Positions 2,216-37,452 of a stretch of DNA of 64,000 bases are shown one piece after another (position 1 is the stretch's first letter; each line of letters starts with the position of its first letter). The position numbers were made by a program, and so were the translations under genes. The DNA lies in NCBI GenBank assembly GCA_902581145.1, contig CACHNE010000006.1, positions 1-64,000 on the forward strand. Direction: 5' to 3'. The notes beneath the pieces are model-generated. The model made no database searches. It saw only the letters and a list, made by a program, of their open reading frames with translations, and was not told the origin of the DNA. This DNA is from an uncultured Bacteroidota bacterium. GTDB taxonomy: Bacteria > Bacteroidota > Bacteroidia > Flavobacteriales > Flavobacteriaceae.

Positions 2216-3802
2216 TTATGTAAAATTATAGGTAGTAATTAGATTTTCCACAAAATCAATTTTGAGTTTTGTTGCCTCAACGGTTGAATTGTAGCCCAAC
2301 GGATAATTATATTTAATTAATTCAACACTAAAATTATCGTTTTTGATCTCAATATTAAGACAGTTATTAATCTTAATTAAATTATTATTTTGTATTTGAA
2401 TATTACAACTAGGATGAAAATGGATATAGGCACTAGATATTCTTTTACTGCAATCTATATTGTCAATAATTTTAAATCCATTACTCAAAATTTTAAATAT
2501 TCTTCTGTGGTTTACCCCGACAAAATTATAACCATTATGGGAAACATCAATTAATTTTTCACTTTCTTCGTTAATCAAAACCTTCGCTCTTCGACCAACT
2601 CTGAATGCAGCCCAAACTTCAGAACTATTTTTTGAATCATATACAACAGTATTATGAAATTTTGTGGATCTTTCTTCATGTCTCTCAGAAACGTTATCAT
2701 ATGTTGAAATTCCAGGATCTACAATTATTGGAATATCATTATTATATAGCAAAAAATTAAAAGTATCTGCATGAGAATGGCCTGGTTGAAATGATGGATT
2801 TATATCAGCAATATCAACAATTATAAAATTATCACCAATATTAAAAGTCCTTATCCCACTTTCATTTAGTACTATTTTTTTTGGTTTAATTTTTAGTTTA
2901 TTCATAAGTTGGTAAATATTTTGATATTCAACCGAAATTCCTTCAACTGAATCATTTAACCTGGGAAAAATATCTTTATAATTATTAATTTTAATCATCC
3001 ATGAAAACATTAGGGATATTTTATCTTGTATTAATTCACGTAAATTATTATTCCAATTATTAGTATTAGAATTAATCAATGATAATAATTACATTAACCT
3101 TGACATAATAATTATATGGTACATTGTGGATAACTCATAATGAGCGCCATCATCTAATATTTGTTCATTTATTTGTTTAGATAAAATATTCAAGGATGTT
3201 TTAATAAGTTTTTTATTTTGGAAAATATGTGCACCAAAAGTAAGTGCAATTGCATTTTCTAATAAATGATTTCCCATTAGATGATACTCAAGATTTTTTG
3301 AAAGATATTGAATATCATCTTTTAACAATTTTAATATGAAATTATAATCATCATTAGGTTTTAGAGTAGAATAAAACTTTACGATATTGATTATTCTTAG
3401 GGATGTTGGATATGGTTCTCTTCCGTGAATTAAATTATGATAGTCGTTTGAAAAATCTTTGAGTAAATTAAGCTTTTGTTTAATGCTTAAATTTTCTTGA
3501 TTTAAATATTCAAAATAATTCAAGTTATAAATCCATAATTTCCCTTCAACTGAGTAATTCCAGTCTATTTTTTTTTTAAAATAAACTACTTTATTTAAAA
3601 ATTTAAACGAAAAATTATCAACATCAAAAATATCTTTTTTTGAGAAAAAATAGAAGGATTTTAAATTAGAATATTCATTCTGATTAATAATAATTTTATT
3701 GAAACAGGATTTTATTTTTAATCTATTTTTTATCAGATAGACAACCTGAATTGGTTTTAAATAATAGATTGTTATAAAAAATTTACATAGAGAATTAAAC
3801 AT
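2216..3802 (-). pseudogene. Heparinase II/III family protein, split by a single in-frame TAA (3089-3091)
   Basis: ORFs 3089..3802 and 2216..3079 are in the same frame; reading through gives ...MYHIIIMSRLM*LLSLINSNTNNWNNN...; second half has heparinase-like PGHSHADTFNF and HNTVVYD motifs. Confidence 0.8.
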
Positions 3803-7288: not shown

Positions 7289-8415
7289 CTTTTTCCACCT
7301 TTTTCTAATCCTAGTCCCTTCATTACATAAGCACCAATTCTGTATATATATTCTTGAGATTTATAGTCTTTGTGGGTTTTTTTGGGCAGATTAAAATATG
7401 ATTTTAATTCATCGGAACTAATACCAATTTTATCAGCTACGTATTCAAAATCATGAACTATGTTTTTTATATCATAAGGTTTTTTCTTCAATAAATTTAT
7501 AGCCTCATCTCTTTTCATTTGCCCGGTTAAAATTAAGCTAGAGTATTGAACTCTTCTTGTGTCATATCCAAATCTCTCATATAGCCAATAACTTTCATAG
7601 AATCTAGTAAATCTAGATTCAAAATGTTTTTGCGGATACTCTTGAAAACCATATTTTTTCACTAGTTCTTTAGTAGCTTTATTTTTGTTGTAATCGATTA
7701 AATCCAAAGGTCTAATTAATTTTATCCCTTTAATGTATGGGAGATAAAACTTATGCCATAAAATATTAGTAATTGGATAAGAGGCTAATTCTATACTCCC
7801 AAATTTATTATGTATATCTCTTAACTGGGCTGAATCGGATTGATACCACATCCATTCTAGAGGATTTCTAACACACTCGGTTGAATAATTCCCTCCGGTT
7901 AGTATATATTTTATATTATGCTTGTGGGCAAACTTATACATAGTAGCAAAAAATGCATGATCTTGCGGGGCATCAATGTGAGATACACCGGATTTAAAAA
8001 AAGAAAGTTGAAGATCTTTCATTTCCTCCCAGTTTATTACCTCGGTATATAAATCCAGGCCTAATCCATCAACTATTCTTTCTATATTATTGACAGCTAG
8101 TTGTGAATTCCATCCTGCATCAACATGAAAAACTAAAGGTCTTAAATTAAATTCAGAAACCATTTTATGCAATAAAAATGAACTGTCAATACCACCACTC
8201 ATTCCCATCAAGCAATCAAAATCTTGATTTTTACCTGATTTTTTTATTTTATTTACCAATTTGAAAAGTTTTGCTTTAGAATTAGAATCTATTTTCCAGT
8301 GAGGTTTGATTTTTACATCAAAAGTGTTGCAATGATCACATACACCATCCGAATCAAAAGAAATATTGGAATCTGAAGAGTCCATTACACATCTTTTACA
8401 AATCTTATAATCCAT
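7285..8415 (-). CDS. N-acetyl sugar amidotransferase (WbpG/PseA-like)
   Basis: Start set at MDYKICKRCVMDSSD; Cys-rich zinc motif (CKRC...CDHC), PP-loop MGMSGGIDSSFL. Confidence 0.88.
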   Translation of the reverse strand: MDYKICKRCVMDSSDSNISFDSDGVCDHCNTFDVKIKPHWKIDSNSKAKLFKLVNKIKKSGKNQDFDCLMGMSGGIDSSFLLHKMVSEFNLRPLVFHVDAGWNSQLAVNNIERIVDGLGLDLYTEVINWEEMKDLQLSFFKSGVSHIDAPQDHAFFATMYKFAHKHNIKYILTGGNYSTECVRNPLEWMWYQSDSAQLRDIHNKFGSIELASYPITNILWHKFYLPYIKGIKLIRPLDLIDYNKNKATKELVKKYGFQEYPQKHFESRFTRFYESYWLYERFGYDTRRVQYSSLILTGQMKRDEAINLLKKKPYDIKNIVHDFEYVADKIGISSDELKSYFNLPKKTHKDYKSQEYIYRIGAYVMKGLGLEKGGKR

Positions 8416-9400
8416 TATAGCCAAGTTTAACTGCGATTGGTTCAATAGTTTTTCTCATTATCTGCAAATAAGCATTTTTAATTTCATTTTTATATTTTGA
8501 ATTTAAATCCCTTTTTATAGGATACCATCTTGAATTATATCTAGTAAAATAAGGAATTTTTTGGTTTTTTTTGGGTAACATATCACCAGAAAATTGCAAA
8601 TTCAGGAATTTACATAATTCCTTAGTCTTTATTTCAGGATCTATCAAGAAATCTTCAATTCTTAAAATATGAAAATTATTTACATTTAATGAGTCTTTGA
8701 GAGAATGAGACATAGAGTTATTCCAGTGTTCAGAACAGTATCTTAGTTTTTCCTCAAATTTTAATTCTTTATTTTTTTTTAAATCATCTCTGTCCATCAA
8801 CATAGCAGCTCTATATATAGAGACATATGGGTTTCTCGTGATAAGAATAAAATAAGGATTAGATTTAACAAGAATTTGATTTATACATTTTAAATTAATT
8901 GTGAAGATTTGACTTTTGTCAATAAATCTTTTAGAGGTTCCAAATCTTTTTAAAGCTAATTTAATAGAATTTATAAATCTATGTATTTCCCATGATTTTA
9001 AGTTTGAGTATTCAATTCTGTAGTGTTGTATTAAATCATTGTTTGCATATGTCCAACTTCGAGGGGATTTAAAAATCGGATGATTTACTTTGTCCCTTGT
9101 TAAAAAACCACTCGATCTAAGATTTTTACTTAAATAAGGTTCGTAAATAGCAGCCATTTCATCTGCACCAGTCCAATATTTAGAATTTCCTGTTGATGAT
9201 ATAATATTAATATTTCTTCTTAAAACTCTTGAAATAAAGGTTAAACCATCGCCTTGACACCCAAGAAGAAAAATTGGATCTTTAATATTAACTCCCTTTA
9301 AATCTCTGAAAAGATGGAATACCCAAGAATTTCTTTTTAAGAAATAGCCTATAAGATGAGGTTTCAAAAATTTATAAAAACTTTTAGATTTTATTTTCAT
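8405..9400 (-). CDS. Sulfotransferase family protein
   Basis: FLLGCQGDGLTFISRVL PAPS-binding-like N-terminus, ITRNPYVSIYRAA, IEDFLIDPEIKTKELCKFL. Confidence 0.75.
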   Translation of the reverse strand: MKIKSKSFYKFLKPHLIGYFLKRNSWVFHLFRDLKGVNIKDPIFLLGCQGDGLTFISRVLRRNINIISSTGNSKYWTGADEMAAIYEPYLSKNLRSSGFLTRDKVNHPIFKSPRSWTYANNDLIQHYRIEYSNLKSWEIHRFINSIKLALKRFGTSKRFIDKSQIFTINLKCINQILVKSNPYFILITRNPYVSIYRAAMLMDRDDLKKNKELKFEEKLRYCSEHWNNSMSHSLKDSLNVNNFHILRIEDFLIDPEIKTKELCKFLNLQFSGDMLPKKNQKIPYFTRYNSRWYPIKRDLNSKYKNEIKNAYLQIMRKTIEPIAVKLGYNGL

Positions 9401-23311: not shown

Positions 23312-23383
23312 TTATTTTTTTTAAAGCTTCGCCAACGTCAGTCACAATTATAACTAACAAAAATAATACTTATTTATTGTTAA

Positions 23384-23845
23384 TTAAGCTAATTTTAGCT
23401 TAACACTATATCCAATAGATTTCAAATAAATCCAAATATTATTATTTGAAATTCTATTAACAATTCCTTTTTCGTTGTTAAAAGATGATAAACTAAAATT
23501 ATCACCAACTTTAATATTCGAAAGATTAGTATTTATCAAATTATAATCTCCATTTAAATATTTTTTTAAAATATCAACTTCTGATTGCCTAACTAATGCC
23601 CTTTTACCTAACCAAAACATATACCTTACAACTCCTGGACATTCAAAAACCCTATTAATATCTTTATCTTCTATATTTACTAGTACGATTGAAGGCATTA
23701 CTGGAACTTGAATTCTTTTTTTACGATCACTCCAAAGTCTAATTTCATTTCTGGTTGGACAATAAGCATTAATTCCCATAGCCAATAACTGTTCCTCAAC
23801 TTTTTTCTCACCTCTTGGTTTTGTGTGTATTACGTACCAATTCAT
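23384..23845 (-). CDS. UpxY/RfaH-type NusG-like transcription antiterminator
   Basis: MNWYVIHTKPRGEKKVEEQLLAMGINAYCPTR NGN-domain N-terminus, KOW-like C-terminus; upstream of polysaccharide genes. Confidence 0.9.
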   Translation of the reverse strand: MNWYVIHTKPRGEKKVEEQLLAMGINAYCPTRNEIRLWSDRKKRIQVPVMPSIVLVNIEDKDINRVFECPGVVRYMFWLGKRALVRQSEVDILKKYLNGDYNLINTNLSNIKVGDNFSLSSFNNEKGIVNRISNNNIWIYLKSIGYSVKLKLA

Positions 23846-24354
23846 TTAGATTTTTTATTGTAAAGAATAATTGTGTTTAAATCTGGTTTTTGATTTACAA
23901 GGAAGCTTACTTCTCTTCCAATTTTCTTTTTGATTTTTGATTTAATACTATTTAAATAATCTTCGTTCACGTCTAGACCATTAATAATTATCTCAATATT
24001 TCCACTATCAATTCCCTCTGCATATTCACCAGTCAAAGCAATCTGATCAACATCTCCAATTCGATCAATCACAGTTTCAACAATATCCTCTAAACCCAAA
24101 TGTTGTCTTACAATCTTTTGCAAAACATCGAACATTGGGTGAGATGTATTAGCATTATAAATAATCCTGTTATTTTCTTTTGATTTCAAAAGGTATCCTG
24201 CGTTGGAAAGATTATTTAATTCCTTTCTTATTGAATTGGTAGATTCGTTGAATTCGTTGGCAAGACCATTTAGATATCCATTATTAGCAGCACTAATAAA
24301 GAATTTTATAAGCATCCGTAACCTGGTTTTAGATGTAATTAATGAACCTAGCAT
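23842..24354 (-). CDS. Winged-helix regulator fused to degenerate nucleotidyltransferase-like domain
   Basis: Start set at MLGSLITSKTRLRMLI (ATG at 24352-24354); wHTH ANEFNESTNSIRKELNNLSNAGYL; C-term ALTGEYAEGIDSGNIEIIINGL resembling the NTase GS..G..D.D motif with changes. Confidence 0.75.
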   Translation of the reverse strand: MLGSLITSKTRLRMLIKFFISAANNGYLNGLANEFNESTNSIRKELNNLSNAGYLLKSKENNRIIYNANTSHPMFDVLQKIVRQHLGLEDIVETVIDRIGDVDQIALTGEYAEGIDSGNIEIIINGLDVNEDYLNSIKSKIKKKIGREVSFLVNQKPDLNTIILYNKKSK

Positions 24355-24366
24355 AATATTAAGTAA

Positions 24367-24374
24367 CAAAAGTA
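24367..24374 (-). promoter_or_regulatory. Candidate -7 box TACTTTTG for the regulator/UpxY/polysaccharide operon
   Basis: Minus-strand TACTTTTG, 12 bp upstream of the predicted ATG. Confidence 0.45.
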
Positions 24375-24405
24375 CTTATTTTTGAGTAAAAAAAGTACTT
24401 ATTTT
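24368..24405. repeat. Two direct copies of AAAAGTACTTATTTT (24368-24382, 24391-24405), 23-bp period
   Basis: Read directly; each copy carries the palindrome AAGTACTT. Confidence 0.85.
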
Positions 24406-27084: not shown

Positions 27085-27537
27085 TTATCCTAAATACCCC
27101 TTGATATCAATGTGTAGTGAATCATCTACCATTGATTTCCAAGTATCATCACCATTTTTAATAGACTCTCTAATTTTTGTTGCAGAAATAAACATAGCGC
27201 CACTATCAGCCGGAGGCTGAAACTCATTTATTTCGTAGCCAACTCCCCTGCCGTAATTCACTGACTCAATATCAGGAATTATCATAACCTCTACATCATC
27301 TCCGTGTGCAGCATGATATTTTTTTATCATACTAACTGTTTGTTCAGTTGTGAATGGGTTTCTTTCATCTGGTTCTATATTTCTAACCATGATAAGGGCT
27401 GGAATTCCCTCGTTTAATTTTTGTTTAATTAATTCGATATGACCAAAGTGATATGGTTGGTATCTACCAACAAATATTGCATATTTTTTATCTGCATTTT
27501 TAGTGGGCTCACCACCATGATTTATTTTATTCCACAT
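27085..27537 (-). CDS. NadM-like nucleotidyltransferase (HIGH superfamily)
   Basis: FVGRYQPYHFGHIELIKQKL and C-term ISATKIRESIKNGD. Confidence 0.8.
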   Translation of the reverse strand: MWNKINHGGEPTKNADKKYAIFVGRYQPYHFGHIELIKQKLNEGIPALIMVRNIEPDERNPFTTEQTVSMIKKYHAAHGDDVEVMIIPDIESVNYGRGVGYEINEFQPPADSGAMFISATKIRESIKNGDDTWKSMVDDSLHIDIKGYLG

Positions 27538-27540
27538 AAT

Positions 27541-27939
27541 TTATATTGATTTAGAAATTAAAGTTTTGAATTTAGTTGTTGACCATCCATGGTCTCTGTT
27601 GAGAAAGTGAATTTTTATATCCAAGTCATCGCCAGTATATTTTTGATTTTTGTAATCATTTCCAAGGAATCTAATATTATAATTTCCCTTCTTAATTAAT
27701 TCGTATAATTCAGATTCGTATGTATAAGTCTTGATGTCGGAAATATACTTTATAGATTCAAGAATTTCAATTCTTTCCTCAAGTGTTAGAATAGGCTTGA
27801 GTTTACTCGGTCTTTCGATTGAAGGATCGGAATGACGAAAGATTGTTAAATGATCACAATTTTGAAAACATTCTTTGAATAATTTGATGTAACCAGGATG
27901 AATTACGTCAAAGTTTCCAGCTGTAAAGCCTTTAATCAT
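27541..27939 (-). CDS. Cytidylyltransferase-like protein with atypical HPGY motif
   Basis: GFTAGNFDVIHPGYIKLFKE; ...RFLGNDYKNQKYTGDDLDIKIHFLNRDHGWSTTKFK. Confidence 0.78.
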   Translation of the reverse strand: MIKGFTAGNFDVIHPGYIKLFKECFQNCDHLTIFRHSDPSIERPSKLKPILTLEERIEILESIKYISDIKTYTYESELYELIKKGNYNIRFLGNDYKNQKYTGDDLDIKIHFLNRDHGWSTTKFKTLISKSI

Positions 27940-28513
27940 TTAGTTGTTTTATAAATTTTAGTAAATATTCAACCGATTCAGAAATTGACATATTTTTTAG
28001 GGTTACTTCAGCCATAGTAGGTTTTTCGTAAGGTGCATCGATCCCAGTAAACCCCTTTATCTCACCAGCTAATGCCTTCTTGTAAAGCCCTTTAGGGTCT
28101 CTTTTAATACATTCCTCTACATCAGTATCAACAAATACCTCTTTAAAGTCATCACCAATTAAATCTCTTGCGTCTTGTCTGTCTGCAATATATGGAGATA
28201 TAAAAGCAGTCAAAACGATAGTACCGGAATCAGCAAAAAGTTTAGCTACTTCACTGATTCTTCTGATATTTTCTTTTCTGTCTTCTGGGGAAAAAGATAA
28301 GTCTTTATTTAAACCCATTCTTATGTTATCACCGTCGAGGATATAAGTTTTCTTTCCTAGTTTATTTAACTCGTCGTCTAAAGCATTGGCAATTGTAGAT
28401 TTTCCTGAGCCAGAAAGTCCAGTAAACCATAGTACCATTCCCTTTTGACCGTTAACTTTCTCTCTTCTTTCTCTTGTAACAGTAAAATTATGCTTAGTTA
28501 AATTTGTTGACAT
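27932..28513 (-). CDS. cysC: Adenylylsulfate (APS) kinase
   Basis: KGMVLWFTGLSGSGKSTIANALDDEL, LDGDNIRMGLNKDLSFSPEDRKENIRRI, FTGIDAPYE. Confidence 0.96.
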   Translation of the reverse strand: MSTNLTKHNFTVTRERREKVNGQKGMVLWFTGLSGSGKSTIANALDDELNKLGKKTYILDGDNIRMGLNKDLSFSPEDRKENIRRISEVAKLFADSGTIVLTAFISPYIADRQDARDLIGDDFKEVFVDTDVEECIKRDPKGLYKKALAGEIKGFTGIDAPYEKPTMAEVTLKNMSISESVEYLLKFIKQLND

Positions 28514-28540
28514 ATTTTAATTTATTTGATGTACAGGGCG

Positions 28541-28571
28541 CAAATATAGTTAAAGGCTATGTCCATTTCAA
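28541..28571 (-). promoter_or_regulatory. Candidate promoter TTG-N20-TATATTTG upstream of cysC
   Basis: TTG (28569-28571 minus) and TATATTTG (28541-28548 minus). Confidence 0.5.
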
Positions 28572-28588
28572 ATAATAAACAAGATATA

Positions 28589-29407
28589 TTAATGTATGCT
28601 ATTTATTTTTATTTTGTACATCATTGGACTTCCAAAAGTTTCTGCTTCAGATGTAACCCAAAAAGTATTTTTATCAATTATTTTAATCGACTCAACTTGG
28701 GTTTTCTCTAAAGGAATTTTGTAAATATCAATATAATAGTTAATTGGTTTTTTGGGGTCAAAATCTTTTATTTTCAAAATATAATACTCATCACCTTTAA
28801 ATGAAAGACTTCCAGTTAATGCCAAAAGTTTGGTTTTGGAATCATAATCTGCTCCAGTAATAATTGATTGTGTATTTAAGCGACCTATTTTTTTGGCTTC
28901 ATATGTACCAGCTATTTTTGGTACAGTATAAATTTCTGTAATTTTTTTAAGCTTATTCTTTGTAAATATTATTAAACTATCATCTACTATAATTAACCCT
29001 TCTGCATCATACTGAGATGATTTTTCAAGTGTGATAAATTTATCTTGTTCAGGATAATGGAAATTAATAATCTCATAAGAATTGTTTTCAGAATTTACAG
29101 GAATCTTAATAATTCGTAAATTTTCTCTTGTATCAAAATTATTTCCTGTGTCAGCTATGTAAATAAATTCTTCGTCAGCAGTTAAATCCTCCCAATCATT
29201 ATTTTTTAAATCATTAAACATTCTTCTATTGAGCATTTCACCATCTTTATTTAAATAATATAAATTTGATGGGTTTCCTGAATCGTTAATAGTAATTAAA
29301 TTATTATCAACAATCTCTAATCCAGAAGTTTCATAGACTGATATTGGAAGTTCAGTTTCAGAGATAATGGTTTGTGCATCAAGTTTTGCTACAAGAAAAA
29401 AAAATAT
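28589..29407 (-). CDS. Putative secreted SdiA-regulated/esterase-like beta-propeller protein, start codon uncertain
   Basis: ORF track version (to 29500) runs through a tRNA gene, so the N-terminal 29 residues are not real; remaining LIFFFLVAKLDAQ looks like a signal peptide without an ATG/GTG/TTG start. Confidence 0.55.
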   Translation of the reverse strand: MFFFLVAKLDAQTIISETELPISVYETSGLEIVDNNLITINDSGNPSNLYYLNKDGEMLNRRMFNDLKNNDWEDLTADEEFIYIADTGNNFDTRENLRIIKIPVNSENNSYEIINFHYPEQDKFITLEKSSQYDAEGLIIVDDSLIIFTKNKLKKITEIYTVPKIAGTYEAKKIGRLNTQSIITGADYDSKTKLLALTGSLSFKGDEYYILKIKDFDPKKPINYYIDIYKIPLEKTQVESIKIIDKNTFWVTSEAETFGSPMMYKIKINSIH

Positions 29408-29414
29408 AAGTAAG

Positions 29415-29488
29415 TGGCCCAGGGAGGATTCGAACCCCCAACCCTCAGAGCCGAAATCTGATATTCTATCCAGTTGAACTACTGAGCC
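29415..29488 (-). tRNA. tRNA-Arg (anticodon TCG)
   Basis: GGCTCAGTAGTTCAACTGGATAGAATATCAGATTTCGGCTCTGAGGGTTGGGGGTTCGAATCCTCCCTGGGCCA; acceptor GGCTCAG/CTGGGCC pairs, anticodon stem TCAGA/TCTGA, loop TTTCGGC; no encoded CCA. Confidence 0.95.
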
Positions 29489-29496
29489 TTTTTTTT

Positions 29497-29946
29497 TCAT
29501 GATAAAAATTCTCTAACTATTGTAGATATCATCTTTCCATCAGCCTTACCCATAAGTTTCTTTGTTGATATACCCATAACTTTACCCATATCTTTCATTC
29601 CTTCTGCTCCTATTTCATCAATGACAGATTTTACAATATCTTTAACCTCATCTTCAGAAAGTGCTTTAGGCAAAAATTGTTGTATTAACTCTGCCTCTTT
29701 TAACTCAGGATCGGCTAAATCATTTCTGCCTTGACCTTTATAAATATCAGCGCTGTCTCTTCTCTGTTTTACCAGCTTTTGTAATAATTTCATTTCATCT
29801 TCCTGAGATAATTCTCCGTCGGATGACTTTTGTGTTTTATGTAATAAAATAGCTGACTTAACAGCTCTCAGCGCTGTTAACTTTGTTTGATCTTTACTTT
29901 TCATTGCCTCTTTTAGGGCAGTTGTAATTTTTAATTCTAAACTCAT
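29497..29946 (-). CDS. GatB/YqeY domain protein
   Basis: KSKDQTKLTALRAVKSAI, KLVKQRRDSADIYKGQGRNDLA, MGKVMG. Confidence 0.92.
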   Translation of the reverse strand: MSLELKITTALKEAMKSKDQTKLTALRAVKSAILLHKTQKSSDGELSQEDEMKLLQKLVKQRRDSADIYKGQGRNDLADPELKEAELIQQFLPKALSEDEVKDIVKSVIDEIGAEGMKDMGKVMGISTKKLMGKADGKMISTIVREFLS

Positions 29947-29978
29947 ATAAAATGTTTAAACTTTAAATATACTATTTA

Positions 29979-30980
29979 TTAATTTTTTAATTTTTCCCAA
30001 TTCCATGCACTCTCTAACCCTGACTCAAAACTCATAACTGGAAACCACCCCAATTCATCATTAATTTTGGTATTATCAGAATAAATTTTTTCAACATCAC
30101 CAGACCTTCTTGGACCTAATTCATATGAAATTTTTAAATTATTGACTTTTTGAAATGAGTCAATAACCTCTTGAACACTTACACCTTTTCCAACACCCAG
30201 ATTATAAGCGGTTTTTATTTTAGTATTATTCAAAATATGATTTACAGCCATAACATGTGCCTTTGCTAAATCAACTACATGTATGTAATCTCTTACACAT
30301 GTACCATCGATGGTATTATAATCGTTGCCAAATATTTGCATAGACTCTCTTTTACCACTTGCCACCTCACAAATAATCGGAACCAGATTGTTTGGTTTAT
30401 CGGCTGAGCAATCGCCTATCAAACTAGTAGGATGAGAACCAACTGGGTTAAAATATCTCAATGAAATACTATTAATTGTAGATTTTTCGATTAATTTTTC
30501 ACATAACTGTTTAGTTTCACCATAGGGTGATTCCGCTTTTCCAAAAGGTGCCAACTCATTAACAGGTAAAAATTCTGGTGTCCCGTATACGGTACAAGAA
30601 GAAGAAAAAATAATATTATTAACATTATGGCTATTCATTAAATCTATCAATGTTTCTAGTGATCGAATATTATTAGAAAAATATTTATCAGGATGTCTCA
30701 CGGATTCTTCAACAGATTTAAAGGCAGCAAAATGTATTACTGCATCAATATTTTTTTTCTCCTTGAATACCTTATTCATTTGCTCAAAATCTGTGCAATC
30801 AACTTTGTAAAAATCAATCTTACTTTTTATTATTTGTTCAGCCCCTGTGATGTTATTTAATGAGCTGTTTGATAAATTATCAACTACAATAGGTTTATAG
30901 CCAGAGTTGTATAACTCTACTAAAGTATGTGAACCTATATATCCCGCCCCACCAGTAACTAAAATATTTTTTCTGTTCAT
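29979..30980 (-). CDS. galE: UDP-glucose 4-epimerase
   Basis: [51 protein letters not shown]. Confidence 0.95.
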   Translation of the reverse strand: MNRKNILVTGGAGYIGSHTLVELYNSGYKPIVVDNLSNSSLNNITGAEQIIKSKIDFYKVDCTDFEQMNKVFKEKKNIDAVIHFAAFKSVEESVRHPDKYFSNNIRSLETLIDLMNSHNVNNIIFSSSCTVYGTPEFLPVNELAPFGKAESPYGETKQLCEKLIEKSTINSISLRYFNPVGSHPTSLIGDCSADKPNNLVPIICEVASGKRESMQIFGNDYNTIDGTCVRDYIHVVDLAKAHVMAVNHILNNTKIKTAYNLGVGKGVSVQEVIDSFQKVNNLKISYELGPRRSGDVEKIYSDNTKINDELGWFPVMSFESGLESAWNWEKLKN

Positions 30981-31012
30981 ATAAATAATTCAATTTTGAT
31001 TCTTGACTTAGA

Positions 31013-32941
31013 TTAGTCTACGTTGTCGTGAAGAAACGAATTGTTTTTTCTAATTTTCATGTCATCATTCTCATCTAACGTAATTGATGTCCTAGAAATT
31101 TCATTATCCTCTGAATAATTTTTATTTTCCAATTCGATCCCTCTTCTTTTGTATGCAGGTTCATTTTCAATATCATCAATTTTTGATTTATTAAACTTGT
31201 AGTTAAATTCCTTCATACGCAATCTTCTTTCTGCAGATCTTTGCTTTTGAAAATCTGAAACAGATGAATTAAAAGGATCTTGCAAATCATCTGTTTCAGA
31301 TTTGTCGACAGCTTCAATTGTTGTAGTGTCAATTTCAGATGAATTCATTTTACTTTCTATCTCGATTACAGATTCAAATAAATGATTTTCATCACTTTCA
31401 TTATTATAATTATCTTCATTATCAATAATATCGTCAATCTCATTTTCGTCTAATTCAGATTCTTGAGATTCAACATCAGAATTATTATTTTTTTCTTTTT
31501 CGTCAAATAATGACCATTCGATTGACGAAGATTCAGCTTCATAATCATTCTCAAATTTCTCAATTTCCTCTTTAGAATCATCCTCAAATGAATTAATACC
31601 AATTCTATTTGTTTCTGAGGTATTCAATGCAGAAATCTCATCTTCAATATCGAAATTGAAATCCTCTTCAACTTCTTCCACCTCATCTAGAATGTGAACT
31701 ATTTTCTCTTCTGAAACTTCATCTTCAATTTCTAACTCAGGTTTGTTTTCAAAATCTTCTTCACTATTAATTTCATTTTGAGTGTCAATTTCAGTTTCCT
31801 CCTCCAATACATGTATAATCCTATCGCTATTTTCAATTTCAGTTTCTTTATCAATGGTGTCATTTGTTTCATTAACTTCAGAAACATGGGAGAATAAATT
31901 ATCACCCTCTAACTCATGAACTATTTTTTCCGGTTCTGTGTTTGAAATCTCATTTTGCTGATCAACATTAAATCCTGTTGCGATTACAGTTACCGAAATT
32001 GAATCAAAGAGTTCAGGATCTTCACCTACACCCATAATTATATTAGCTCCATAACCAGCTTGCTCCTGAATGTAATCATTTATCTCGCCTATTTCATCAA
32101 TGGTTATTTCCTCATTTCCAGAAACAATTAACAATAGTACATTTTTTGCACCGGTGATACGGTTATCATTTAAAAGTGGTGAATCTAGTGCCTTTGTTAT
32201 TGCATCATTTGCTCTATTGGTTCCAGATGATGAAGCAGCACCCATAATAGCTGTACCACTATTACTTAGTACTGTTTTTGCATCTTTCAAATCAATATTC
32301 TGCGTGTAATGATGTGTGATAACCTCGGCAATTCCCTTAGATGCGGTTGATAATACTTCATCAGCTTTTGAAAAACCAGCCTTGAAACCCAGATTGCCAT
32401 ATACTTCTCTTAGTTTATTATTATTTATAATAATCAAAGAATCAACATGATTTCTCAATTTTTCGATTCCTGCCTGAGCTTGATCATTTCTTAATTTTCC
32501 CTCAAAACTAAATGGTGTTGTTACTATCCCGACAGTTAAAATATTCATTTCTCTAGCCATTTGGGCAATTATAGGAGCGGCACCAGTTCCTGTTCCTCCA
32601 CCCATTCCTGCGGTGATAAAAACCATTTTAGTGTTTACATTAAGCATTGCCATTATATCCTCAGCACTTTCAAGGGCAGCCTTTTCACCAACTTCAGGGT
32701 TTGCACCGGCTCCAAGTCCCTCAGTAAGATTAACCCCTAACTGAATTTTATTGGGTACTCCACTATTGTTTAGTGCTTGTGCATCGGTATTGCAAATCAC
32801 GAAATCAACACCTTTAATTCCTTGGCGATACATGTGATTGATAGCATTACTACCTCCACCTCCAACGCCAATTGCTTTAATTACGTTAGATTGATTTTTG
32901 GGTAAATCAAAACTAATTCCTAAATCTAAATTTTCATCCAT
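31013..32941 (-). CDS. ftsZ: Cell division protein FtsZ with very long acidic C-terminal linker
   Basis: IKAIGVGGGGSNAINHM, GGGTGTGAAPIIAQMA; then about 300-aa acidic region ending EPAYKRRGIELENKN...NNSFLHDNVD. Confidence 0.97.
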   Translation of the reverse strand: MDENLDLGISFDLPKNQSNVIKAIGVGGGGSNAINHMYRQGIKGVDFVICNTDAQALNNSGVPNKIQLGVNLTEGLGAGANPEVGEKAALESAEDIMAMLNVNTKMVFITAGMGGGTGTGAAPIIAQMAREMNILTVGIVTTPFSFEGKLRNDQAQAGIEKLRNHVDSLIIINNNKLREVYGNLGFKAGFSKADEVLSTASKGIAEVITHHYTQNIDLKDAKTVLSNSGTAIMGAASSSGTNRANDAITKALDSPLLNDNRITGAKNVLLLIVSGNEEITIDEIGEINDYIQEQAGYGANIIMGVGEDPELFDSISVTVIATGFNVDQQNEISNTEPEKIVHELEGDNLFSHVSEVNETNDTIDKETEIENSDRIIHVLEEETEIDTQNEINSEEDFENKPELEIEDEVSEEKIVHILDEVEEVEEDFNFDIEDEISALNTSETNRIGINSFEDDSKEEIEKFENDYEAESSSIEWSLFDEKEKNNNSDVESQESELDENEIDDIIDNEDNYNNESDENHLFESVIEIESKMNSSEIDTTTIEAVDKSETDDLQDPFNSSVSDFQKQRSAERRLRMKEFNYKFNKSKIDDIENEPAYKRRGIELENKNYSEDNEISRTSITLDENDDMKIRKNNSFLHDNVD

Positions 32942-32959
32942 GGTACAGTATTATTTTTA

Positions 32960-34312
32960 TTATTCAGCATTATCTAAAAAGTCTTGTAGATTCTTTGTTA
33001 ATTTATCTAAAAAAGACTCTCTCTTAATTTTTGTTTTTTCGGGTTTTTGTTCTTTTTCATTTAAATTGTCTTCTTCACTTGATTCAATCACACCATCCTC
33101 TCCATTTGAGTTTTCTAATTCTAAATTTTCTGTAGTATTTTTTTCAATTTTGGAAAGACCATCCATCACTAATCCAACGGCCGTAGCATAAAGTGGACTC
33201 GTGACATTTTTATCAGTATCTCCAGCCAAATGCTCATTTGGATAACCAACTCTAGTATCCATTCCAGTAACGTATTCAACTAATTGCTTCAAATGTTTTA
33301 ATTGGCTTCCCCCACCAGTTAGTACGATTCCCGCAATCAATTTTTTCTTTTGTTCCTCGTGTCCATAATTCTTGATCTCTAGATATACTTGTTCTATAAT
33401 TTCTACAGTTCTTGCATGAATTATTTTTGACAGATTTTTTAACGAAATCTCTTTGGGGTCTCTTCCTCTAAGACCAGGAATAGATACAATTTCATTTTCT
33501 TTATTTTCTCCTGGCCAAGCAGACCCAAATTTTACCTTTAATAATTCTGCTTGCTTTTCAATAATGGAACATCCTTCTTTAATATCTTCAGTAATGACAT
33601 TTCCTCCGAATGGTATAACCGCTGTATGCCTTATAATTCCATCTTTAAAAATTGCCAAGTCTGTAGTTCCTCCACCTATATCAATCAAGGCGACTCCAGC
33701 TTCTTTTTCTTCATTACTAAGTACTGCATTGGCTGATGCTAATGGTTCAAGTGTGATACCATCCAGATCTAAGCCAGCACTTTTTATACACCTTCCAATA
33801 TTCCTGATTGAAGAAACTTGACCAACTACAACATGGAAATTAGCCTCAAGTCTACCTCCGTACATTCCAATAGGCTCCTTAATCTCAGCTTGTCCATCCA
33901 CCTTGAACTCTTGTGGAAGAACATGTATAATTTCTTCCCCAGGAAGCATCACTAATTTATGTACTTGATTTATCAATTTCTCAATATCAGTTTCGTCAAT
34001 AACTTGTTCTGAATTATTTCGGGTTATGTAATCACTATGCTGAAGGCTTCGTATATGTTGTCCTGCAATTCCAACAGTAACACCATCTACTTTAATTCCA
34101 GAAAGTTCTTCTGCTTCAGAAACAGCTTGTTGAATTGATTGAATTGTTTGGGTAATGTTATTAACAACTCCTCGGTGAACACCTAAACTGATTGATTTTC
34201 CAACACCCAAAATCTTCATTTTATTATATTCATTAGTTTGTCCGATCATTGCAACTATCTTAGTTGTACCTATGTCTAATCCGATTGAAATCATATTTTC
34301 TTTCATAATCAT
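32960..34312 (-). CDS. ftsA: Cell division protein FtsA
   Basis: ISIGLDIGTTKIVAMIGQ, GVALIDIGGGTTDLAIF, IVLTGGGSQLKHLKQL. Confidence 0.96.
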   Translation of the reverse strand: MIMKENMISIGLDIGTTKIVAMIGQTNEYNKMKILGVGKSISLGVHRGVVNNITQTIQSIQQAVSEAEELSGIKVDGVTVGIAGQHIRSLQHSDYITRNNSEQVIDETDIEKLINQVHKLVMLPGEEIIHVLPQEFKVDGQAEIKEPIGMYGGRLEANFHVVVGQVSSIRNIGRCIKSAGLDLDGITLEPLASANAVLSNEEKEAGVALIDIGGGTTDLAIFKDGIIRHTAVIPFGGNVITEDIKEGCSIIEKQAELLKVKFGSAWPGENKENEIVSIPGLRGRDPKEISLKNLSKIIHARTVEIIEQVYLEIKNYGHEEQKKKLIAGIVLTGGGSQLKHLKQLVEYVTGMDTRVGYPNEHLAGDTDKNVTSPLYATAVGLVMDGLSKIEKNTTENLELENSNGEDGVIESSEEDNLNEKEQKPEKTKIKRESFLDKLTKNLQDFLDNAE

Positions 34313-35022
34313 TATTTTTTTACTGCCACAACTTGATTTTCAAATTGTAGATTAACCTCTTTGTATTTTTCAATATCATTTTTTCTGACAGCTCTATTGT
34401 AAAAAGCTTTTAGATTTTGAATTTTCTTTTCTAATTTATTGTTATGACCTAACTCAATAAATGTGTTTAAACCAATAAGCTTTAAATTAATCTGCTGATT
34501 TTCATCAATAATAATTTGAGTGATATTTTGATTCAAGAATTTATCATCTCTAATCATTAATGAAACTTTTGTTAAATAATCCAAATCAGAAAATTGATTG
34601 AATCCAAAAATTATCGGAACATCTGCTGAATGTAATTTTGAAAGACTCATAAAATTTGAATTTTTATCTAAATAAAAAATACTGTCGTTTGTAATTATTC
34701 TTGCAACAGGTTCCTTTTGTTTTACATTAATAAATAATTTATTACCTACCATAGTGAAAACCTGAGATTTTTCAACAAGAGTGTTTTTATCTAATTGATC
34801 TTCAATTTTTCTTATAGAAATAGAATCCTTTGTGGTATAAATATATCTTTTGATACTGTTTTTGATAGAGTCAATTGAAATGTAAAATGAAGAGTTGGGT
34901 TGAATTACTACATCAATATCTTCGATTAACCTGTTATTATTAAAATAATTAGAAGCGTATAATATTCCTATTGAAAATATAAATACAAAAAACAATAATA
35001 TTTTACTCCAGTTAAACCGCAT
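34312..35022 (-). CDS. ftsQ: Cell division protein FtsQ-like
   Basis: Position between murC and ftsA, single N-terminal TM segment, POTRA-like region. Confidence 0.8.
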   Translation of the reverse strand: MRFNWSKILLFFVFIFSIGILYASNYFNNNRLIEDIDVVIQPNSSFYISIDSIKNSIKRYIYTTKDSISIRKIEDQLDKNTLVEKSQVFTMVGNKLFINVKQKEPVARIITNDSIFYLDKNSNFMSLSKLHSADVPIIFGFNQFSDLDYLTKVSLMIRDDKFLNQNITQIIIDENQQINLKLIGLNTFIELGHNNKLEKKIQNLKAFYNRAVRKNDIEKYKEVNLQFENQVVAVKK

Positions 35023-36364
35023 ATTCTAACTCCCTTTTTATTTGTTCTACCTCTTTACCTATATCTCCTGCCCCAAGTGTTACATTGACTCTATAACCAA
35101 TATTTTTAATCATATCACTCAAATCCGATTTCTTTGACAGGTATTTATAATTTGATTTAATTTTTTGTAGTAAAATTTCTGAGCTTACTCCACTTATTGG
35201 CTCCTCTCTAGCAGGATATATATCCAATAAAATAACAGCATCAAATTCTGAAAGAACATCGGCAAATTCGTCCAATAAATCTCGTGTTCTCGAAAATAGA
35301 TGAGGCTGAAAAACAACTAATAAATGTTCATTTGGGTAAATTGATTTTAAAGTTTTAAACACCTGTTTTATTTCCTCAGGATGATGTGCATAATCATCAA
35401 TTAAGACTATATTCTCATTATCAATTTTATATGAGAATCTACGTTCTATTCCGTCAAAAGAATCTAAAGCGTTGAAAATTTGTTTTTCTGCTACACCTAA
35501 TTTAAGGGCGATGGAAACTGCAGCAACTGAATTCATAATATTATGAACACCCTGAAGCTTAATTTTTAAATTTTCTAGTCTAGCCCCGTTAAAATGCAAA
35601 TCAAATTGCGAAAAACTACTATTGCATTTGATGTTTTTAACGATATAATCTGAGACATCAGAAATTCCATATTTCAAAGACTTAATATCGACCTGTTCAT
35701 TTGAAATTAAAAACCCTCCATCTAACAAATTATTTTTAAATTCTATAAAGGCTTCATTTAGGTTTTCTGAATCTTCGTAAATATCTAAATGATCAACATC
35801 CAAAGAAGTTATACAAGCAAAATTTGGGTTTAAGTTTAAAAAAGATCTGTCAAATTCATCAGCCTCAACCAAAATAAAATCTTCACCATTATAAATAAAA
35901 TTTGAAGTGTAGTTTTCCATAATTCCTCCAACAAAAGCGCAAAAGGAAAAATCAGCCACTTTTAAAATATGGGCTAGTATTGCTGTTGTTGTGGTTTTCC
36001 CGTGAGTTCCAGCTATCGCAATACATTGACCAAATTTTGAGATTTTTTGTAAAATCTCTGATCTTTTGTGAACTTTAAATTTATTTTCAATAAAAACTTT
36101 AAGTAATGGATGTTTTTTTGAAATTGCTGATGTATAAACGATCAAAGTGTCTTTCTTGTTATCAATGAATTCACTTATATTTAGTTTGCTTGGGTCGTAA
36201 ATCACATTTGCTCCTGATTTTATAAGACCTTCAGTTATAAATGATTTTTCCCTATCATAACCCAAAACAGAAACGCCCTTTTCTATAAAATACTTAGCCA
36301 ATCCGCTCATGCCAATTCCTCCTATACCGATAAAAAAAACTTTATTTATGTTCTCTATGTTCAT
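35012..36364 (-). CDS. murC: UDP-N-acetylmuramate-L-alanine ligase
   Basis: VFFIGIGGIGMSGLAKYF, IAGTHGKTTTTAILAHIL, IDDYAHHPEEIKQ. Confidence 0.96.
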   Translation of the reverse strand: MNIENINKVFFIGIGGIGMSGLAKYFIEKGVSVLGYDREKSFITEGLIKSGANVIYDPSKLNISEFIDNKKDTLIVYTSAISKKHPLLKVFIENKFKVHKRSEILQKISKFGQCIAIAGTHGKTTTTAILAHILKVADFSFCAFVGGIMENYTSNFIYNGEDFILVEADEFDRSFLNLNPNFACITSLDVDHLDIYEDSENLNEAFIEFKNNLLDGGFLISNEQVDIKSLKYGISDVSDYIVKNIKCNSSFSQFDLHFNGARLENLKIKLQGVHNIMNSVAAVSIALKLGVAEKQIFNALDSFDGIERRFSYKIDNENIVLIDDYAHHPEEIKQVFKTLKSIYPNEHLLVVFQPHLFSRTRDLLDEFADVLSEFDAVILLDIYPAREEPISGVSSEILLQKIKSNYKYLSKKSDLSDMIKNIGYRVNVTLGAGDIGKEVEQIKRELEYAV

Positions 36365-37452
36365 CGGTTCATAAGATTTTTTATTTCATTAACAATATCA
36401 ATAGTAGCATTTGTATAAGCTGTTTTTTTGATATTTTTTGAAAGTTTATTTCTAAGCTCCGAGGATGAATTTAATTCAGATATTCTCTTTTTTAAATCAT
36501 CAATATTTTTTTCTTCAACCAATAGAGCTCCCTCGTTTTTTACAACTGCCATGGCATTTTTTAGCTGATGATCTTCGGCGACATTTGGTGATGGAATAAA
36601 AATCACAGGCTTTCCTACAATGGATAATTCTGATACAGAGCTTGCACCAGCTCTTGAAATTATAAAATCAGAAACTGAATAGGCTAAAGCAATATCATCT
36701 AAGAAGTCATATAGCTTTAAATCATAAGAAATTTCTTTTTGTTTGTACTCATCGTAATATAACTTTCCACATTGCCATATTACCTGCAGGTTGATATACT
36801 TCAAATAATCTTGAATAGAATAAATAGCTTTATTAATCTCTCTTGAACCTAAACTACCTCCAATGACAAGCATTGTTTTTTTATCGGCGTTTAAATCAAA
36901 AGACTTAATTCCTTTATCAAATAAATCCGAAAAATTATTAATATTTGATCTTACTGGGTTTCCTGTTAATACAATCTTATTCTTTGGGAAATACTTTTCC
37001 AAATTTTCATAAGCAACACAAACTTTATTTACCTTTTTTGACAATAATTTATTTGTGATACCAGGGTAAGAATTTTGCTCCTGAATTAATGTCGGAATAT
37101 TTAAAAGATTTGCCACATACATAATTGGGCCACTGGCATATCCGCCGGTTCCAATTACAATATTAGGCTTGAATCTCTTAATAATAATCAGTGATTGAAA
37201 AATACTTATCAATAATTTTAACGGAACTAAAATATTCTTTAAAAAATTTGTTCTATTAAATCCCGAAATCCATAAGCCCAATATATCAAATCCGTATTTT
37301 GGTACAATATTCATTTCCATTTTGTTATTTGCTCCGACAAATAATATCTCTGAATTCTTATCTCTAAACAACAATTCATTAGCAATAGAAATAGCAGGAT
37401 ATATATGTCCTCCTGTTCCACCACCTGATAATATTATTCTGTTTCTATTCAT
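36361..37452 (-). CDS. murG: Undecaprenyldiphospho-muramoylpentapeptide beta-N-acetylglucosaminyltransferase
   Basis: ILSGGGTGGHIYPAISIANEL, GGYASGPIMYVA, ISRAGASSVSEL. Confidence 0.96.
   Translation of the reverse strand: MNRNRIILSGGGTGGHIYPAISIANELLFRDKNSEILFVGANNKMEMNIVPKYGFDILGLWISGFNRTNFLKNILVPLKLLISIFQSLIIIKRFKPNIVIGTGGYASGPIMYVANLLNIPTLIQEQNSYPGITNKLLSKKVNKVCVAYENLEKYFPKNKIVLTGNPVRSNINNFSDLFDKGIKSFDLNADKKTMLVIGGSLGSREINKAIYSIQDYLKYINLQVIWQCGKLYYDEYKQKEISYDLKLYDFLDDIALAYSVSDFIISRAGASSVSELSIVGKPVIFIPSPNVAEDHQLKNAMAVVKNEGALLVEEKNIDDLKKRISELNSSSELRNKLSKNIKKTAYTNATIDIVNEIKNLMNR

Follow-up and report, generated by a model that had tools for sequence, protein, structure and literature searches.

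The first two genes of a surface-polysaccharide cluster of about 23 kb in a marine Bacteroidota bacterium probably belong to a cis-encoded two-level control unit, wherein a winged-helix regulator would act at transcription initiation and a UpxY-family antiterminator at elongation of a variable surface-polysaccharide operon. ORF and profile analysis of the window (the whole stretch of 64,000 nucleotides analyzed here) places the regulator gene and then upxY, both on the minus strand, at the head of the cluster (Table 1), and comparisons between genomes give good support to the proposed logic of the circuit. At the first level, the regulator, presumably as a dimer, would bind palindromes lying over the -7 box (site 1) and the -33 region (site 2) and would repress regulator-upxY transcription from its own promoter, P1, with an inducer, likely a nucleotide-type metabolite, bound in its degenerate nucleotidyltransferase (MNT) pocket. 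At the second level, derepression would allow UpxY to be made and to load onto RNA polymerase paused at an ops-like element, where it would recognize an exposed non-template mini-hairpin (GCGNAGC) in a manner resembling that of RfaH at ops, before carrying polymerase through the 23-kb cluster.

Table 1. Features of the predicted control unit and its polysaccharide cluster (positions in the window).
Feature	Position	Strand	Basis and remarks
Surface-polysaccharide gene cluster	58-23311	-	Pfam
ops-like element TGTGACTGACGTTGGCGAAGCTTTA	23322-23346	-	Between upxY and the first sugar gene; predicted UpxY loading site
Predicted mini-hairpin GGCGAAGCT within the ops-like element	23325-23333	-	GCGNAGC core
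Possible P2 -7 box TATTTTTG	23358-23365	-	Matches the consensus; retained in most members of the genus; 12 nt 5' of the ops-like element
upxY	23384-23845	-	153 aa; NF033644, PF02357
Regulator gene	23842-24354	-	170 aa; ORF, ortholog starts, AlphaFold, Foldseek
Pseudo-nucleotidyltransferase (MNT-like) domain of regulator, ~residues 101-166	23857-24054	-	AlphaFold, Foldseek
Degenerate active-site motif GEYAEGIDSGNIEI, residues 109-122	23989-24030	-	Alignment with 2rff and MntA
Winged helix of regulator, ~residues 1-68	24151-24354	-	AlphaFold, Foldseek
Near-invariant DNA-binding region EFNESTNSIRKELN, residues 34-47	24214-24255	-	Alignment, 63 orthologs
Operator site 1 AAGTACTTTTGTTACTT (- strand)	24361-24377	.	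Over -7 box; palindrome conserved in orthologs
Predicted P1 -7 box TACTTTTG	24367-24374	-	TAnnTTTG register; transcription start ~24362, leader ~8 nt
Operator site 2 AAGTACTTTTTTTACTC (- strand)	24384-24400	.	Over -33 region; tandem copy, 23-bp period, genus-conserved

A sequence-only reading of this DNA had described a 4-nt overlap between the two genes, which is genuine (23842-23845), and had placed them at the start of a 24-kb cluster, a position that holds, the downstream Pfam matches being to sugar genes of a long polysaccharide cluster. The start codon of the regulator has been corrected: the ORF begins at TTG 24369, but this TTG lies within the predicted -7 box and orthologs share an ML-codon start position, so translation is assigned to ATG 24354, where the orthologs begin. 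The same reading had called the module self-contained; regulator, upxY, and operator are all present, but the module is incomplete without the ops-like element 3' of upxY, a third part that falls just beyond the segment then considered (23384-24405). A consensus scan of the coding strand near the module found no intrinsic terminators. The host genome assembly is 68.5% complete.

The predicted UpxY-like antiterminator proved to be a genuine UpxY-family NusG paralog (NF033644, 104.5 bits against a cut-off of 100, the model spanning residues 3-151), with a NusG N-terminal domain (PF02357, 2.7e-16); for a KOW-type C-terminal domain, the sole match is a weak one to the SPT5 KOW (E 0.06). Divergent specialized NusG paralogs have been reported from about half of Bacteroidota (PMC7593976).

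The ops-like element, whose core is present as a single copy in the host genome at up to three mismatches, also stands beside upxY in distant Bacteroidota of many families. Among 63 non-redundant upxY loci, 31 carry the exact element on the sense strand and none carries it on the antisense strand, these counts becoming 42 and 0 with one mismatch allowed. As many of the 63 loci had been picked through the regulator, an unbiased set was needed; 30 loci selected by UpxY alone yielded nine exact sense elements and no antisense ones, and eight of the nine lie in genomes devoid of the regulator, indicating that the element tracks UpxY and not the regulator. A strict element pattern gave 14 matches (reversed control, 1) in 11 of 295 Bacteroidia genomes, all 11 of which have a UpxY above the cut-off (P 2e-6); seven of the matches pair with UpxY and eight with the regulator within 5 kb, the strand always being shared. 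The consensus of 59 copies, T-G[TG][GA]ACT-[GTC]A-N3/4-[GA]GCG[AG]AGC[CT]-[GA]T[GA], includes conserved positions outside the search pattern (T at -1 in 58 copies, the spacer A in all 59, and T two bases past the hairpin in 57), and its outer stem pair is G-C in 28 copies, G-T in 23, A-T in 6, and G-A in 2. The element is probably the UpxY loading site. About half of the UpxY-selected loci have no recognizable ops-like element, which implies that other UpxY clades need another signal; several loci with a strong UpxY and no recognizable element within about 1.5 kb (L107, L108, L109, L111, L114, L116, L117, L121, and L122) probably use a different loading sequence. Exact elements also occur with no upxY or regulator within several kilobases (L087, L088, L089, L090, and L091), and these may possibly be served in trans by a distant UpxY, as with RfaH.

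The manner in which the element would be read can be approached through known DNA hairpins. Exceptionally stable mini-hairpins arise in DNA where a GNA or GNNA loop is closed by two or more G-C pairs, and GCGAAGC melts at about 78 degrees C (PMC4686876). The ops element of E. coli, GGCGGTAGCGTG, folds in the non-template DNA into a hairpin, with C3:G8 and G4:A7 pairs, that is read by RfaH, and ops also pauses polymerase (PMC6391919). By analogy, the ops-like element may form a non-template DNA mini-hairpin. Both systems have a specialized NusG paralog and a promoter-proximal element, and the elements share their 12-nt length, their ends (GGCG....CGTG in the commonest copies), and the GNA/GNNA mini-hairpin class; nevertheless, the ops-like element has a GNA triloop in place of GGTA and an additional conserved GTGACTnA box upstream, and UpxY is encoded in cis, next to the element. 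The 12-mer is GGCGAAGCTTTA in the window and most commonly GGCGAAGCCGTG or GGCGAAGCCGTA elsewhere; neither the window element nor its commonest relatives (GGCGAAGCCGTG) are exact E. coli ops. A standard DNA folding model did not rank the hairpin above shuffles; folding energy, being non-significant, was thus rejected as proof, and the hairpin step rests on the sequence rule and the analogy.

An alternative with a small but appreciable chance of being correct is that the element is a nascent-RNA signal, a hairpin or translation leader, and not a DNA loading site. The element does lie at transcript starts or between genes, and LoaP, another NusG paralog, relies on a leader RNA hairpin (PMC12691694); a stem of just three base pairs with a GNA loop nevertheless follows the DNA mini-hairpin rule, and the flanks are conserved like those of a pause site such as ops. 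Rfam matched no family, and a known RNA family was rejected for the element.

The loading-site reading can be set beside the arrangements in which the parts occur. They change places between loci, the strand staying common, and the arrangements include operator-regulator-upxY-ops (the window), operator-regulator-ops-upxY, upxY-ops-regulator, and operator-ops-regulator, in the last of which the element follows the operator at the transcript start. In several loci, the operator is immediately 5' of the element. Because the element lies 3' of upxY in the window, reading of upxY itself should not require UpxY. A second promoter, P2, may stand ahead of the element; a second operator at P2 (AAGTATTATTTTTGTTAGTT) was considered and rejected, as its spacing and half-site do not fit.

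In an AlphaFold model of the regulator, built from 21 orthologs (mean pLDDT 88, pTM 0.78), an alpha/beta domain follows a winged helix. Foldseek matched the first domain to winged-helix regulators and the second to the MNT antitoxins 6m6w_F (TMt 0.57, rmsd 2.8) and 8xeo_B, which places the latter domain in the MNT fold; together with a profile match to the solved nucleotidyltransferase 2rff (E 0.002), these results agree with the domain pair first suggested from the translation, and MntA is also matched by sequence. The active-site motif noted earlier as degenerate, GEYAEGIDSGNIEI, aligns with GSRARG..TSDIDI of 2rff, but other residues stand in place of its Ser and its first catalytic Asp. In the alignment, the canonical GS..DxD motif is absent from all 63 orthologs: position 110 is mostly D or E in place of Ser, no ortholog has Asp at position 119 (that of the first Asp), and R or S usually occupies position 150, the approximate place expected for the third Asp. 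The residues retained are G109 and G114 (63/63), D116 (60/63), K140 (58/63), and R147 (53/63), the remaining orthologs having R at 140 and K at 147. This pattern fits a non-catalytic domain, and the polar set that is kept is compatible with a binding pocket, although not proof of one. In the winged-helix region, EFxESTNxxRxELN is almost invariant across the 63 orthologs.

No Pfam or NCBIfam family cut-off was reached by the regulator, those of ArsR/SmtB, DeoR, and MarR included (SdpR, 22 of 100 bits; HTH_metalloreg, 14 of 55; HTH_DeoR, 16.6 of 21), and nothing specific to this regulator family was found in the literature. The PADLOC PDC-M05A models match it almost over its full length (E 7.4e-17), assigning it to the M05A-type nucleotidyltransferases; PDC-M05 pairs a nucleotidyltransferase with a HEPN protein, and its antiviral role is unconfirmed (PMC12988326). 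No HEPN partner adjoins the regulator, whose neighbors are AhcY, MetK, UpxY, and DegT, and PADLOC found no M05 match among the neighbor proteins scanned; a defense or toxin-antitoxin identity was rejected despite the PDC-M05A match. The regulator shares the MNT-type fold and sequence matches with MNT enzymes and antitoxins (MntA of HEPN-MNT, PDC-M05A) but departs from them in its missing catalytic motif, its lack of a visible HEPN partner, its location in sugar operons, its fused winged helix, and its palindromic operator. Its fold is thus that of the MNT proteins, but its motif is not that of an MNT enzyme, and no HEPN pair that would include it is visible. Because of the PADLOC match, defense scans of Bacteroidota may score it, a polysaccharide regulator, as one of the two components of a candidate defense system.

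The operator conserved upstream of the regulator is a 17-bp palindrome, RAGTA-N7-TACTY, of which the window holds two copies. The sequence-only reading had named absence of its repeats upstream of orthologs as evidence against it; a perfect palindrome is present within 200 nt upstream of 45 of the 63 non-redundant orthologs, where dinucleotide shuffles would give 0.15, and allowing one mismatch raises the count to 55 (2.5 expected). These counts are non-independent owing to shared ancestry. Two apparent exceptions (L015 and L072) have the palindrome farther upstream, beside the ops-like element, and the dyad extends to Sphingobacteriaceae and Melioribacteraceae loci (L036, L039-L041). The proposal of an operator over the regulator's own promoter likewise holds, with a TAnnTTTG -7 box in register inside the palindrome in 26 of 47 aligned operators (consensus and position taken from F. 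psychrophilum; PMC9723704). As the dyad persists where the -7 box is lost, the operator is separable from the promoter. It is improbable that the regulator is instead an activator or dual regulator whose palindromes help polymerase: the sign of control is unreadable from sequence and site 2 lies in the -33 region, but the palindrome encloses the -7 box in those 26 operators, and a protein bound there usually blocks polymerase. We infer repression, presumably by a bound dimer.

The regulator was found in 58 of 295 sampled Bacteroidia genomes, 52 of which have a strong UpxY (co-occurrence P 2e-25), and 28 regulator-UpxY pairs lie within 5 kb, both genes always on one strand; the other six regulator genomes have no UpxY above the cut-off, and some regulator loci have no UpxY nearby. 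Such close linkage, along with a first-two-gene placement resembling upxY-upxZ (PMC12632263), could be taken to mean that the regulator acts mainly on UpxY, as a partner, inhibitor, or stand-in for UpxZ, with DNA binding secondary. This is very unlikely, given that the regulator gene is also found at the start of sugar operons where the genome lacks a strong UpxY, that the operator persists there (L047, 5' of the G314 regulator), and that the DNA-binding residues are the most conserved part of the protein.

The two exact 15-mers first reported are present (24368-24382 and 24391-24405, start to start 23 bp), but the conserved unit is the overlapping palindrome; likewise, the 23-bp direct repeat is exact in the window, but the tandem pair is limited to this genus and a few neighbors, most orthologs having a single palindrome. 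The loose 15-mer (up to three mismatches) occurs at chance level in the window (21 versus 23.9 in shuffles), so the evidence is instead one of exactness, position, and conservation, and the 15-mer was rejected as the functional unit. A chance origin of the repeats in AT-rich DNA, as the unenriched loose 15-mer in the window and the lack of genome-wide enrichment of RAGTA-N7-TACTY might suggest, is very improbable in view of palindrome conservation 5' of orthologs greatly above dinucleotide shuffles. In those genomes of the genus in which the regulator is present, no exact operator sites occur elsewhere; this confinement to the regulator promoter suggests a local switch, a wider regulon in the genus being rejected, and supports local autoregulation by the regulator at its own predicted operator.

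The cluster encodes a DegT aminotransferase, UDP-sugar dehydrogenases, Rml-type genes, a UDP-GlcNAc 2-epimerase, a glycosyltransferase, and others, and nucleotide-sugar and polysaccharide genes also lie downstream in other genomes. Identity to six relatives is 68-91% over the regulator, upxY, and the DegT gene, but for the distal part of the cluster the stretch compared in them holds no counterpart; by this comparison, a conserved control head sits on a variable locus. Within the cluster, a heparinase II/III-like gene (2216-3802, minus strand) is divided into two ORFs (N-domain 3089-3802, C-domain 2216-3079), which may reflect a frameshift, pseudogenization, or an error of assembly, and a sulfotransferase gene lies at 8405-9400. 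At three loci of relatives (L028:2938-3975, L031:2935-3974, and L037:1-973), the regulator-upxY-ops unit is immediately 5' of metK; the window differs in having metK and ahcY upstream of the regulator. These SAM-cycle genes travel with the module. Upstream of metK (27085-37452, minus strand) are an APS kinase gene and two cytidylyltransferase-like genes, then ftsZ, ftsA, and mur genes of a division and cell-wall cluster, and the sugar locus thus adjoins cell-wall genes.

In B. fragilis, capsule operons are under UpxY/UpxZ control (Chatzidaki-Livanis 2009, 2010; Saba 2024; as related in PMC12632263 and PMC12691694), and there, too, a UpxY-family NusG paralog is encoded at the head of the polysaccharide operon that it should serve. 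In the window, however, a winged-helix regulator that has an operator of its own occupies the first position, and the ops-like element is 3' of upxY, whereas the Bacteroides element is in the leader 5' of upxY; upxZ is absent after the window upxY, the next gene being the DegT aminotransferase (345 bits). The window system is therefore distinct from Bacteroides upxY-upxZ, set apart by the lack of an adjacent upxZ and by element position. With respect to the Bacteroides recruitment sites (Saba 2024), the claim of novelty for the ops-like element is a limited one.

A broader and tentative reading is that Bacteroidota have widely domesticated a wHTH-MNT protein of toxin-antitoxin type, turning it into a repressor that has lost catalysis, senses nucleotide sugars, and gates a UpxY loaded at a non-template DNA mini-hairpin with a GNA triloop. 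If so, precursor supply would decide both the start and the completion of a very long surface-polysaccharide operon. The cited work on the UpxY mechanism was performed on Bacteroides, and the element is found with upxY in many families; this compact element is a direct candidate for the place where UpxY loads, and seems to share a DNA mini-hairpin principle with RfaH at ops. Likewise, a predicted operator for an unnamed regulator family would make surface-polysaccharide control predictable from sequence. As the parts of the control unit recur across Bacteroidota, the predicted start-and-run switch is open to direct testing.
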